A DNA stretch of 64,000 nt, taken from Acidaminococcaceae bacterium. GTDB lineage: Bacteria > Bacillota > Negativicutes > Acidaminococcales > Acidaminococcaceae. The notes beneath the pieces were generated by a model. The model was not told where the DNA came from, did not search any database, and was given only the letters and a program-made list of their open reading frames with translations. This document shows, piece by piece, positions 43,682 through 49,736 of the stretch; positions within the stretch are counted from its first letter, which is position 1; the number at the start of each line of letters is the position of its first letter. The stretch is from NCBI GenBank assembly GCA_022484685.1, contig JAKVKY010000007.1, positions 1 through 64,000 on the forward strand. Direction: 5' to 3'. Made by a program: the position numbers and the translations under genes.

Positions 43682-43710
43682 ATTGTACCCTGCCTCAGGC
43701 AAAATAGCAA
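43682..43710 (-). promoter_or_regulatory. Promoter of DUF1015-serC
   Basis: Minus strand TTGCTA (43705-43710), 17-nt spacer, TACAAT (43682-43687). The spacer contains the palindrome TGCCTCAGGCA (43691-43701). Confidence 0.65.
43691..43701. promoter_or_regulatory. Palindrome TGCCTCAGGCA inside the DUF1015-serC promoter
   Basis: Perfect palindrome between the -35 and -10 boxes; same 13-mer (reverse orientation) as in the CoA-transferase leader. A protein bound here would block the promoter. Confidence 0.4.
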
Positions 43711-43713
43711 GCC

Positions 43714-44376
43714 TTAACCTGCTAAATCACGCCAGTGGGTAAAATCACTTATGACCAGGTCCACTTCCGGCATCTGATACAGGAAGGCGCTGCCGGGGAT
43801 CGCAGCCAGACCGATAATCCGGGCCACCCCGGCCGCCGCCGCTGCTTTCACGCCCAGCCAGGCATCTTCAAAGACCAGGCACTGTTCGATAGGAACCCCA
43901 ATCCTGGCAGCCGCCAAAAGGTAAATATCCGGATGGGGCTTGCCGGGAAAACTGCCGTCCGAGAAAACAATCTGGTCCGGGTCAAACCAGCGTCCCAGTT
44001 GTAGATGTTCCAGATAAAAATCCAGGTTGCCTTTATCCGCGCCCGTGGCAATATTATGCGGGATGCCTTCCGCCTGCAAATAATTTAAAAACCCTTCCAG
44101 CCCCGGCGCCAGCTGCAGAGATTTTCTCTGTAGACAGAACTGCCGGTATAAAGCTTCTTTGCCGTCAGCATAGAACTGCGCTTCGGCGTTGGTAAAATCT
44201 TTATTGATAAAATGACGGATGATATCCACATCCGGCACACCATTGATATACTGTTTAAAATCCGCAGCGGTAACCGTGTAACCTGTCTGCTGGTAAATAT
44301 ATTCCCGCCAGGCCCGGATATTTTCTTCCGTATCCAGGAACATGGTGCCGTTAAAATCAAAAAGAACCGGTTGCAT
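43714..44376 (-). CDS. HAD superfamily hydrolase (beta-phosphoglucomutase-like)
   Basis: 220 aa, subfamily I with an alpha-helical cap. Motif I is FDFNGTMFLD (Asp7 nucleophile, but Asn9 where most phosphatases have Asp), motif II TGAD (about residue 118), motif III GKPHPDIY with its Lys, motif IV FEDAWLGVKAAAAAG. The Asn at the acid/base position is seen in some gut-bacterial HADs but weakens a phosphatase claim. Substrate unknown. 40 nt behind the P-type ATPase-like gene. Confidence 0.85.
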   Translation of the reverse strand: MQPVLFDFNGTMFLDTEENIRAWREYIYQQTGYTVTAADFKQYINGVPDVDIIRHFINKDFTNAEAQFYADGKEALYRQFCLQRKSLQLAPGLEGFLNYLQAEGIPHNIATGADKGNLDFYLEHLQLGRWFDPDQIVFSDGSFPGKPHPDIYLLAAARIGVPIEQCLVFEDAWLGVKAAAAAGVARIIGLAAIPGSAFLYQMPEVDLVISDFTHWRDLAG

Positions 44377-44415: not shown

Positions 44416-46275
44416 TTATTCTTTAAAAGTACGCAGCCGCTGGGTATTAATGAATACGCCTAGCAAACTGGCCAGCGTTACCGCCAGCACCGCCAGGTCC
44501 GGCAATGGTCCCACTCCCAGCAGATAACCTAAGCCGGCCGCCCAAGGCAAAGCCACCATGTTTCCCAGCAAAGCCCAGCGCAAATTTTGCCGGGCCAGAC
44601 GTAAAGTTTTCCGACCCAGACGTAAGCTGGTGCCTACCTGGCGCAAATCATTGCGCGGCAGGATAATATCTGCCGAACCGGCAGTCACCGCATCCACCTT
44701 GCTGCCAAAAGCCAGGCCCACATCAGCCTGAGCCAAAGCCGGCGCATCGTTCACCCAGTCGCCGACCATCGCCACTACCTCGCCCACCTGCTGCAGGCTG
44801 CGGACAAATTCCGCTTTCTGTTCCGGCAGCAGTTCGGAAATCACCTGGTCCGTCCCGGCCAGTTGTCCCATGTAGTTCGCTGCCCGTTTATCATCACCGG
44901 TCATGAGCACCGTCCGCAGTCCCTGCTGACGCAGAGCTGATACCACCGCACTGCTTTCCGGCCTTAACACATCCGCCACGGCAAACATGCCGTACAAAGT
45001 GCGGCCTACCGCCAGATAAAAGACAGTGCGGCCTTCATTCTGCCAGGCCTGAGCCTGATCCAAAGCCGCCAGCGGCATATAGACAAAACCTTGCACAAAA
45101 GCCAAAGGCCCCAGACGGATATTTTCCTTAAAACATCTGGCGGTAACCACGCCTTCACCATGACGCTGCACTTCCGTACATAAAGGTAATTGTGCCGGTC
45201 CAGCCTTCGCCCTAAAAGCGCGACTGACCGGATCAGTTCCGTCCTGTACCATGGCCGCGGCCAAAGCAATAAGTCCCTTTTCACTGCCGCCCTTAAAAGT
45301 GGTGACAGCCGTGACTGCCGGTTTACCAGCTGTCAGGGTACCGGTCTTATCAAAGATTACGGTCACCACCCGGGGAGTACGCGCCAGAACCTCGGCATCC
45401 CTGAACCAGATACCTTGCCGGCGGCCGGCGTTTAAAGCCGCCTGTACCACCAGGGGCAGCGCCAGAAAAGCAGCAGCTGCTGTACCGCAAACCAGTACCG
45501 CTGTTAAAATTTCCAGGGCCCGGGGCCAACCGTAGCCGTTCCAGAGCCAGCTCAAAGAAGTCACCACCGCCAGCACCAGCACAATTGGTACCAGGAGCAG
45601 AGCCACCTGGTCCGTCATCCGGGCTAGCGGTATCTTGCCGGCCCGGGCTTGTGCCACCAGATTTTTTATCTGTTCCAGATAAGGAGTATCCGGAACCGCC
45701 GTTACCGCTGGTGCCGCCAATTCCGGCCGCAGCACCTTATAAACTTTTTCGCCGTACGCCGCCGCTGCCGCCAAAACCAAACTGCCCGCCGCGCTCACCG
45801 GATAAGCTATAGCCGCCGGCAGGTTCCCGGTACGGCCAAAGATTCCCAGCAGCAGGCAGCCCTCGAGAAAAGCTAACGGACCGGCCAGGGCTAATAAAAT
45901 TTCCAGACAGGGCTCGCCTTCCAGCAACGCCCGTCCGCCCCAACGCAGCTGTCCCCGTTCTTCGTATAAAAGTAACAGCAGGCAGAAAAGCTGCAAACCC
46001 AAAACTACGGCCGCTCCCCACCACCGGCAGGCAGCTAAGACCGGCTCACGTACTGCCAGCCAGGCGGGCGGCTGCACACACCACCAGCCAACCAGTTTGC
46101 CCGCAGCGGTAACTAACAGCAGCACCGCAAAAACACTCAGGTCCAGCTTTAAATGCCGCCACCCGGCAGGAAAACGCGAACTGCTTTTAGGGCGCGTGGT
46201 ACCCGTCTCCGGTACTGTTGCTGCCGGTCGCGGCTGTTGCTGTTTATTTGCCTGTTGCTGCTGCTCTGCGTTCAT
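44416..46275 (-). CDS. P-type ATPase-like protein lacking the actuator domain and CPC motif
   Basis: 619 aa. P and N domains are clear: phosphorylation site FDKTGTLTAGKP (Asp309), TGDDKRAANY (460), VGDWVNDAPALAQADVG (505). Layout and ends fit heavy-metal P1B pumps. Three key parts are altered: between helix 4 (ends about 174) and YLEQIKNLVAQA (199) only about 25 residues remain where about 100 with the TGES dephosphorylation loop belong; the metal-site CPC reads LVCGTA (261-266); the N-domain His-Pro is Asp-Pro (348-349). No CxxC metal-binding N-terminus; instead a Gln-rich leader and two or more extra hydrophobic segments. Transport by the normal cycle seems unlikely. Frame is open throughout, so it is not simple decay. 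Confidence 0.85.
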   Translation of the reverse strand: MNAEQQQQANKQQQPRPAATVPETGTTRPKSSSRFPAGWRHLKLDLSVFAVLLLVTAAGKLVGWWCVQPPAWLAVREPVLAACRWWGAAVVLGLQLFCLLLLLYEERGQLRWGGRALLEGEPCLEILLALAGPLAFLEGCLLLGIFGRTGNLPAAIAYPVSAAGSLVLAAAAAYGEKVYKVLRPELAAPAVTAVPDTPYLEQIKNLVAQARAGKIPLARMTDQVALLLVPIVLVLAVVTSLSWLWNGYGWPRALEILTAVLVCGTAAAAFLALPLVVQAALNAGRRQGIWFRDAEVLARTPRVVTVIFDKTGTLTAGKPAVTAVTTFKGGSEKGLIALAAAMVQDGTDPVSRAFRAKAGPAQLPLCTEVQRHGEGVVTARCFKENIRLGPLAFVQGFVYMPLAALDQAQAWQNEGRTVFYLAVGRTLYGMFAVADVLRPESSAVVSALRQQGLRTVLMTGDDKRAANYMGQLAGTDQVISELLPEQKAEFVRSLQQVGEVVAMVGDWVNDAPALAQADVGLAFGSKVDAVTAGSADIILPRNDLRQVGTSLRLGRKTLRLARQNLRWALLGNMVALPWAAGLGYLLGVGPLPDLAVLAVTLASLLGVFINTQRLRTFKE

Positions 46276-46320
46276 CTAGCTCCCTGCCTGACACCGGCCG
46301 TAGTCTCGCATCCGGTCAGC

Positions 46321-47433
46321 TTATTTCAGATTTTCAGGATTCAGTCCCGCCAGTTCCGGCAGGACAAAACGTCCGTCTTTCCGTACCAGGACGCCATCCA
46401 GATAAATTTCACCACCGCCGTATTCCGGACGCTGGATGCAGACCAGATCCCAGTGAATGGCACTCTGGTTGCCATTAGGCGCCTCATCATAGCAGCGCCC
46501 CGGCGTCATATGGAAACTACCGGCAATCTTTTCGTCAAACAACGTATCCTTCATCGGCGTCAAAATATAAGGATTCAGGCCAAAAGAAAATTCGCCCACG
46601 TAACGGGAACCGGCATCCGTATCCAGGACCTTGTTCAAACTTTCCGTCTCATTGGCTGTGGCCTTGATAATCTTGCCGTCCTTAAAGGTAAAAGCAATGT
46701 GCTCATACGTACGTCCCTGGAACACCGCCGGCACATTGTACTGTAAAGTTCCATTAATACTATTCTTCACCGGGGCGGTAAAAACCTCTCCATCAGGAAT
46801 ATTCATGAGGCCGCTGCATTTAATCGCCGGGATATTTTTAATGGAGAAAGTCAGATCCGTACCCGGTCCCTTAATCTGCACCTTATCCGTCCGGTTCATC
46901 AAATCCTGCAGCGGCGTCATGGCCCGGTCCATCTTCTGGTAATCCAGGGTGCACACGTCAAAATAAAAATCCTCAAAAGCTTCCGTGCTCATGTTGGCAG
47001 ACTGGGCAATCGCCGGTCCCGGATACCGCAGCACGCACCATTTGGTATGGGGCACGCGGATTTCGCCATGTACCGGATTGGACCAGTATTTCTCAAACAG
47101 CTCCATCTTGTCATGAGGTACATCCGCCAGTTCGCTGGCATTAGCGCCGGCCCGCACCGCGATGTACGCATCCATCTCTTTCATCCTGGCTGCTTCATAA
47201 GTTCCGTTTTGTTGCATCTGTTCTTGGGTGCAACTCCTGAGCAATTCCCGCTGCAAGCTACTGTTCTTCACCGTGACGAAAGGTACGCCGCCGGCCTTAT
47301 AAGCTTCCGCTACCAGAGCCTGAGCCAAAGGAATACCGCCGTCCGTAACCTCAATCAGCAGTTTTTCTCCGGCCTGCAGCCGGACCGAATAATTAATTAA
47401 ACTGTGAGCAAACTTAACTACGCGTGTCTCCAT
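46321..47433 (-). CDS. Aminopeptidase, M29 family
   Basis: 370 aa metallo-aminopeptidase. Metal-ligand segments are in the right order: IPDGEVFTAP (Glu), YVGEFSFGLNP (Glu), GSFHMTPGRCYDEAPNGNQSAIHWDLV (His, His, Asp, shown here only as FHMTPG and AIHWDLV). Broad N-terminal peptide hydrolysis in the cytoplasm. An ATG at 47433 follows a GTG; GGGAGG is 7-8 nt upstream. Followed by the P-type ATPase-like gene across a hairpin at 46287-46319 of uncertain function. Confidence 0.92.
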   Translation of the reverse strand: METRVVKFAHSLINYSVRLQAGEKLLIEVTDGGIPLAQALVAEAYKAGGVPFVTVKNSSLQRELLRSCTQEQMQQNGTYEAARMKEMDAYIAVRAGANASELADVPHDKMELFEKYWSNPVHGEIRVPHTKWCVLRYPGPAIAQSANMSTEAFEDFYFDVCTLDYQKMDRAMTPLQDLMNRTDKVQIKGPGTDLTFSIKNIPAIKCSGLMNIPDGEVFTAPVKNSINGTLQYNVPAVFQGRTYEHIAFTFKDGKIIKATANETESLNKVLDTDAGSRYVGEFSFGLNPYILTPMKDTLFDEKIAGSFHMTPGRCYDEAPNGNQSAIHWDLVCIQRPEYGGGEIYLDGVLVRKDGRFVLPELAGLNPENLK

Positions 47434-47449
47434 CACAAAGCCTCCCTTA

Positions 47450-47491
47450 CAGAAATAAAACTGCTACCGGGATACCAGACCCCGGCAGCAG
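47450..47491 (-). terminator. Terminator after the VOC gene
   Basis: CTGCT-CCGGG/CCCGG-AGCAG stem with one internal mismatch, followed on the minus strand by TTTTATTTC. Confidence 0.88.
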
Positions 47492-47498
47492 TCACAAC

Positions 47499-47883: not shown

Positions 47884-49736
47884 TTAGCGCTTAAACTGCA
47901 ACGGTACCGTCGCCACCACCACGTCCATGTAATTGAGCATCTTCAGCCTGAGCAGCCAGCCGCTCTGGTTATGCATGAACCGGTGCCACAACTTGCGGGT
48001 TTCAAATTCCGGGATGACGACCGTGATCATATCCCCCGGTTTATTCTTCTGCCGCAGCTGGTTAATAAAATTAATCAGCGGCGTCGACATCTGCCGGTAA
48101 GGCGAAGGTACGACCACCAGTTCCACTTCAGGTTCCAGTTCCGCCCACAGACGTTTTACCTTTTCTCCCTTGGCTTCATCCGTAGCCACATGGACTGCGT
48201 AAATCTTACCGTTGGTGACGCCGATAACCTTGGCATAGGCAATGGCCCGGGCCACCGCCTGTGTCGGTGAAGCCAGCGGCACGATAATATAGTTGGTGCC
48301 TTCACCGTTAGTACGGTAATGCTGTTTATAATCTTCCGGAGTCAGAACCAGTTGCTGGCGCACATCCTCGTAGTGGGCATGAATCTTCTTGAAGCAATAC
48401 ACCAGGGTAGGAATGAGCAGTACCACGATCCAGGCGCCGTAAATAAACTTGGTCAGCAGCACGATGATAACGACCACACCGGTTACCATCGCACCCAAAC
48501 CGTTAATACCGGCATAAAGCCGCCAATATTTACATTTGAGCAGATGCCAGTGTTTGCAAATGGCTGTCTGGGCAATGGTAAAAGACAGGAACACACCCAG
48601 GGCGTACAAAGAAATCAGATGTTCCACATTGCCTTTAAAGACAATCATGAGCAATGCTGCACCCATGGTCAATAAAATAATGCCGTTGGAAAAGCTGAGA
48701 CGCTCGCCGCGTTCGCCCAGATACCGGGGCACATAACCATCCTTGCTCATAAAATACAGCAGGGGCGGCATCCCATTAAAGGCGGTGTTCGCAGCCAGAT
48801 ACAAGATAATCATCGTCATGATCTGTACGAAGAAGAACATCAGGCTCTGGCCAAAGACCTGCTCCACCAGGACAGACATCAATGTCCGGCCTTCAGTAGG
48901 CAGCATGTGGAAATGAATGAAGAGAAAACCGATGCCGGCCAGCATACTGGCCAGGATAGTCGCCATGATGCCGGTAGTAATCATTGCGTTGCGTTCCTGG
49001 GGTACCTTAAACATAGGCACACCATCGGCGATGGCTTCCACACCGGTCATAGAGCTACAGCCGTTGGCAAAGGCTCTTAACAGCAGCACCGCGGTTAACG
49101 CTGTCAAAGGCCCGGCTGCTGTGCCGTTAGTGCGTGCGCCGGCACGCCCAGCACAAAAATCTGGTACAGGCCGCCGCAGATTGTTACCCACATACACCCG
49201 ATAAAGATGTAGGTCGGCCACACGAAAGTCGTTGAAGCTTCCTGGACACCGCGTAAATTGATAACCATCATTAGGAAGAGGACAAATAAATCCAGTTCCA
49301 GATGATACGGTACCAGAAACGGAAAGGCGCTGGTGATAGCCGCCGTACCTGAAGAAATAGAAACCGCCACTGTCAGCAGATAATCTGAGAACAGGGCTGC
49401 GCCGGTAATCAGGGCCGGATATTCACCCAAGTATTTTTTAGCGATGACATAAGAACCACCGCCGCCCGGATTAGCTTTAATAATTTGCGAATATGACAGG
49501 GCCACGATTCCTAACAAGAGGATGATGGCGATAACTACGCGCCCAAAATAGGCATACAGTCCCAGCGCCGGGATAGAAGCCAGCACGAGAGCAATCTGCT
49601 CCGGGCCGTATCCCACGGAAGACAGGGCATCGGAAGAAAAAATCGGTAACGCTTTCCACTTCGGGATGCGTTCGCTCTCCATCTGATTACTGCCCAGGGG
49701 CCGTCCGATCAGCCACCTATAGATAGTCCGAAACAC
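47884..49736 (-). pseudogene. kimA: KimA-type potassium/proton symporter, frameshifted
   Basis: Two overlapping frames together match the roughly 600-aa KimA (YdaO) APC-superfamily potassium importer from end to end: 49736 to about 49140 encodes residues 1-200 (start IYRWLIGRPLGS, SSDALSSVGYGPEQI, NPGGGGSYVIAKKYLGE), and the frame one base back encodes the rest (LLLRAFANGCSSMTGVEAIADG to the C-terminal cytoplasmic domain ending HNQSGWLLRLKMLNYMDVVVATVPLQF). A single-base loss in the GC-rich stretch near 49125-49150 is the simplest cause; no slippery heptamer is visible. Start is GTG at 49736, 10 nt behind GAAGGAG. It lies against the rpsI terminator and has no promoter space or c-di-AMP riboswitch in front. 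Could also be a sequencing error. Confidence 0.88.

Follow-up and report, generated by a model that had tools for sequence, protein, structure and literature searches.

The locus examined here raises the question of what a P1B-type ATPase gene encodes once the region of its actuator (A) domain is missing: a transporter, a gene in decay, or a protein put to some other use. It lies in a 64,000-nucleotide stretch of DNA from an Acidaminococcaceae bacterium (hereafter, the window), where the sequence-only reading had placed an open frame of 619 codons preceded by a normal ribosome site. Both the location and the ribosome site proved right. The gene is read from the minus strand and is flanked by two codirectional genes, each of which possibly forms one transcription unit with it. 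The features of the locus are as follows:

44416..46275, (-) strand: actuator-less P1B-ATPase-like gene, 619 aa (open frame from ATG; PF00702, partial PF00122, TIGR01494 above cut-off)
46280..46285, (-) strand: Shine-Dalgarno-like AGGGAG, 4 nt 5' of the ATG (sequence)
46321..47436, (-) strand: upstream M29 aminopeptidase gene (PF02073; gap 45 bp)
43714..44376, (-) strand: downstream HAD-family hydrolase gene (PF00702; gap 39 bp)
43705..43724, (-) strand: terminator-like stem-loop past the HAD gene (consensus scan only)
47459..47493, (-) strand: terminator-like stem-loop ahead of the M29 gene (consensus scan only)

Elsewhere in the window, an amino-acid permease at 47884-49736 (-) is seemingly split across two frames (ORFs 49104-49736 and 47884-49221), which appears to be a frameshift or sequencing error.

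The actuator domain counts among the core elements of P-type ATPases. Its absence from the window protein, claimed at first from the letters of the sequence, was borne out by Pfam, TIGRFAM, alignment and an AlphaFold2 model. In the Pfam search, E1-E2_ATPase (PF00122) matched residues 191-284 only, which correspond to positions 85-178 of 181 in the profile, i.e., to its C-terminal half; the HAD hydrolase domain (PF00702) was found at residues 305-518. The alignment to TIGR01525 starts at profile position 136 of 560 and scores 309.4 bits, below the curated cut-off of 346.25, and the general P-type model TIGR01494 was passed with 173.6 bits vs. a curated cut-off of 62.3 bits. With phmmer, residue 192 is the first query position matched to solved CopA structures. 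The fourth hydrophobic segment extends to about residue 174, and about 17-25 residues stand in for the TGES-bearing part, in agreement with the roughly 25 residues estimated beforehand. The AlphaFold2 model shows a helix at 152-185, a loop, a helix at 198-211 and M3 from residue 218, with no beta strands or A fold between M2 and M3. Confidence of the model is mostly >90 for about residues 230 to 560, but low for the N-terminal 200 residues, M1-M2 included, because the alignment rows used run from M3 onward and none cover that part, full-length and M1-M2 rows having been left out as misaligned. A split gene with the A domain encoded elsewhere was rejected, as the other three PF00122 matches in the genome are full-length pumps. 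The window protein is thereby confirmed to be P1B-ATPase-like and to lack an actuator domain, and its layout is given below:

45754..46158, (-) strand: four hydrophobic segments MA, MB, M1 and M2, residues 40-174 (hydropathy)
45625..45753, (-) strand: linker in the place of the actuator domain, residues 175-217 (PF00122 from profile position 85 on; alignment; strand-free model)
45418..45624, (-) strand: M3-M4, residues 218-286, CPC replaced by T265-A266-A267 (alignment, model)
45295..45417, (-) strand: P domain part 1, residues 287-327, DKTGT at 309-313 (8 of 8 near-invariant positions retained)
45016..45294, (-) strand: N domain, residues 328-420, SxHP and GxG lost (alignment)
44641..45015, (-) strand: P domain part 2, residues 421-545 (12 of 15 near-invariant positions retained)
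44419..44640, (-) strand: M5-M6, residues 546-619, YN and MxxSS not intact (alignment)

No HMA domain was matched by the Pfam search ahead of MA, and the motif check and alignment found no TGES in the linker, in which some of the strand and helix region that normally follows TGES may persist. Based on hydropathy and on the model, the N-terminal part of which is of low confidence, all eight transmembrane helices, including MA and MB, are retained.

The sequence-only reading had credited the protein with a full phosphorylation and nucleotide-binding half. This holds for the first component: DKTGT at 309 and GDWVNDAP at 505 are where they had been placed, and the P-domain residues D309, K310, T311, G312, T313, D435, G460, D461, P484, K487, D506, N509 and D510 are kept, with TGD at 459-461 and with GDGxND reading GDWVND at 505-510 (Gly507 to Trp). 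It does not hold for the second, as S346, H348, G374 and G376, which hardly vary among 33 other P1B sequences, are replaced by G, D, E and V, respectively, and the His-Pro of P1B pumps is indeed Asp-Pro (348-349). With both SxHP and GxG lost, the nucleotide site is therefore eroded too. As for the metal site, the string LVCGTA proposed as its counterpart is present at 261-266 and the site is gone; however, the CPC columns fall on T265-A266-A267, and C263 lies off the CPC position. In M5, the Tyr of YN is G571 and N572 is kept, and in M6, L604 takes the place of the second Ser of MxxSS. At positions invariant among 20 canonical CopA sequences, the window protein keeps 39 of 49 in the P domain, 3 of 9 in the N domain, 9 of 21 in M3-M4 and 11 of 21 in M5-M6. 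It is a relative of P-type ATPases in which the actuator, the metal motif and the ATP signatures of P1B pumps are all missing.

The top Foldseek matches of the window protein are structures of CopA, the P1B-1 Cu(I)-ATPase (e.g., PDB 4bbj, 3rfu, 3j09 and 7r0g). M3-M4, the P and N fold and M5-M6 align with CopA over ~420 residues at 30-35% identity, and the P-domain catalytic residues are common to both; unlike CopA, the window protein has no A domain, HMA, CPC, SxHP or GxG, and no intact YN or MxxSS. The closest intact relative is a protein of 742 aa from genome G002 (L056:8322-10550), which shares 42% identity with it from M3 to the end, the N-domain cysteines Cys366 and Cys381, a GRxL element and nearby rpsI-rplM-truA genes. 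Unlike the window protein, it carries HMA, TGES, CPC, DKTGT and GDGIND, and looks like an ordinary CopA. Cys381 is found in every actuator-less member, in G002 and in proteins of genus g11, and Cys366 in most of these; both are absent from 21 canonical pumps. In the AlphaFold2 model, the two residues (codons about 45133-45180) lie on neighbouring N-domain strands, where they could form a putative redox or metal site.

The profile search covered the whole taxonomic family (59 genomes; the genus codes g2, g11, g14 and g16 and the family code f1 are the search tool's own labels). Actuator-less homologues were detected in all 14 g14 genomes, that of G075 being a fragment located where its contig stops, and in 5 of the 6 g2 genomes. 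Outside the family, an M1-M2 profile run on 380 genomes of the class gave no matches spanning the deletion, and no close relatives were found among viral contigs. The actuator-less homologues are 530-655 residues long vs. 740-900 in intact pumps, and those of g14 and g2 have the same domain order as the window protein, with both A domain and HMA absent. They differ from it in that g14 members retain CP in M4, whereas g2 members have lost DKTGT and GDGxND altogether, together with most catalytic residues. SxHP and GxG of the N domain are partly lost in g14. The first Asp of GDGxND is lost in G013, G036 and G078, and the phosphorylation motif of G078 reads SETGT. Two candidates were set aside: a 633-aa open frame in G281 is an intact CopA cut by a contig end, and L001, a Chloroflexi match with the same GDWVND, is cut by the contig start and uninformative on the A domain.

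In the phylogenetic tree, the G002 protein, the actuator-less set, the G005 protein and two g11 proteins group together, apart from canonical CopA (100/100). The two g11 proteins retain the A domain, but have DKTGT changed to GKTGT and TGES to TGNS or TGSS. Inside the clade, where long branches make placement uncertain, g2 stands beside these A domain-bearing forms, and the AU test does not reject a single actuator-less clade (p 0.196); the tree is compatible with loss of the A domain once or twice. The window protein does not stand alone, but belongs to a clade of broken P1B pumps distributed over several genera, in which a single CopA-type lineage has been broken in different ways. The g11 proteins (L093:8708-10879 (-) and L094:8084-10252 (-)) are full-length and P1B-like with CPC kept, and this pair has a dN/dS of 0.13 with dS near saturation. 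The G005 protein (L057:7664-9691 (+)) is a half-broken pump with the A domain present but with TGEV and CPS, and with HMA absent; the G005 and g11 homologues look like cases of independent decay.

A mirror case of the window protein is found in g16, where CopA-like pumps of three species (L040:4087-5901 (+), L041:4976-6814 (-) and L042:198-2012 (-)) have the nucleotide-binding domain cleanly deleted. HMA, TGES, CPC, DKTGT and GDGVND are present, with 86 residues separating the last two motifs; the flanks of the deletion share 48-64% identity with CopA from related genera, and dN/dS is 0.09 in the single measurable pair.

The genus of the window species is represented by one genome, so the dN/dS estimates come from the relatives in g14 and g2. 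Whole-gene values obtained by Nei-Gojobori counting are 0.117 in g14, 0.213 in a second g14 pair and 0.161 in g2, i.e., the relatives are under purifying selection, which fits a use other than pumping as suggested initially. By region, compared without a formal test, g14 values are 0.056-0.061 for P, 0.072 for N, 0.066 for M3-M4, 0.122 for M1-M2 and 0.169 for M5-M6, and those of g2 are 0.080 for P2, 0.089 for N, 0.271 for M5-M6 and 0.260 for P1, which has lost DKTGT there and is under no tighter constraint than the membrane part. The pattern is the opposite for canonical CopA from these genera, in part from the same genomes, with N (0.071-0.109) less constrained than M3-M4 (0.018-0.022) and M5-M6 (at most 0.034). 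Thus, in the actuator-less relatives, the transport path has been released and the headpiece held. The first reading of this DNA had taken relatives with an intact domain as a sign of a lineage-specific deletion or an assembly error. Such a relative does exist in G002; yet the deletion is common to many species under purifying selection, and the intact domain of G002 therefore does not make the finding an error.

The wider gene context is partly held in common: rpsI-rplM-truA lie near the window gene and the G002 and G005 homologues, and among the genes close by, the window has DUF1015 and serC in common with g14, and LemA and TPM genes in common with g2, which supports orthology. Immediate neighbours differ: the window gene has the M29 peptidase and the HAD hydrolase next to it, the g14 genes a beta-lactamase-fold protein, and the g2 genes MerR and Hsp20. 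A common operon partner was looked for and rejected, as no such neighbour recurs across genera. In g2 (L053:11414-13667 (+)), the actuator-less gene is overlapped at its start by a gene for a MerR-type regulator, and Hsp20 then follows, which could possibly reflect regulation in that genus.

The explanation that we consider rather probable is that of a pseudo-pump, in which the headpiece of P (HAD) and N domains does the work and the membrane part is an anchor. The ancestor would have been a P1B-1 (CopA-like) copper pump from which HMA, the actuator domain and the copper site were lost. We infer that the window protein has given up transport, the membrane part being kept to anchor the cytosolic headpiece. 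The headpiece would be the selected part, probably acting by binding a partner or ligand in a regulatory or scaffolding role. Since GKTGT of g11 and SETGT of G078 lack the phosphorylated Asp, pump catalysis is not the common function of the clade. Against the pseudo-pump stand the lack of a neighbour gene common across genera that would mark a pathway, the single genome of the window genus, the uncertain placement within the clade and the looser constraint on P1 in g2.

Among the alternatives, it is unlikely that the window gene is a decaying pseudogene, a dead pump in which stops are yet to come. The many lost pump motifs, the long branch of the protein, the single genome of its genus and the seemingly independent decay of the G005 and g11 homologues would agree with this. 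However, the frame is open and its ribosome site in place, retention on the long branch is non-random (compare the P domain with M3-M4), and orthologous forms in two other genera are under purifying selection.

Quite unlikely, too, is a phospho-switch, in which, in the window species and most species of g14, D309 would take up a phosphoryl group from ATP or a small phosphodonor and would signal to a partner in a phosphorylated state made long-lived by the loss of the actuator phosphatase. The actuator domain is described as the built-in phosphatase that closes the P-type ATPase cycle (PMC10654040). D309, K310, T311, T313, D435, TGD, K487, D506 and D510 are all in place in the window protein, and constraint in g14 is tightest on the P domain. 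Nevertheless, the window protein lacks the N-domain ATP signatures, which are partly gone in g14 as well, and residues required for the switch are missing from g11, g2 and G078 (G013 and G036 also lack the first Asp of GDGxND), so that this cannot be the clade-wide function.

That the protein is still a transporter, with another substrate or with actuator function dispensable or supplied by another protein, is improbable: the eight transmembrane helices would permit it, but the M3-M4 metal site is lost, M5-M6 is relaxed in relatives and the genome holds no separate A-domain gene. An assembly or sequencing artefact deleting the A domain, conceivable in a draft genome (58 contigs, 82% complete), is very improbable, as the same architecture with the frame kept in 18 other assemblies of two other genera refutes it for those relatives.

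Returning to the pseudo-pump, a regulatory or moonlighting role of the window protein would be plausible. The closest idea in the literature is C. elegans CATP-1, a P-type ATPase for which a pump-independent action has been reported; CATP-1 resembles the window protein in having a role besides transport, but belongs to the eukaryotic Na,K-ATPase family and no domain deletion is claimed for it (PMC11631496). In the limited open-access literature searched, no description of an actuator-less or pseudo P-type ATPase family was found.

Tentatively, and with chances somewhat short of even, the clade may represent a bacterial pseudo-P-type ATPase lineage without an actuator, in which selection has moved to the P/N headpiece and the transporter fold has been reused as a membrane-anchored regulator. 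If true, a selected lineage with the P domain and membrane part but no actuator would separate the modules of the pump in nature and offer a testable example of a pseudoenzyme derived from a transporter. Such genes would most likely be labelled as copper or heavy-metal pumps by automatic annotation, a label that would be wrong for predicting metal resistance.
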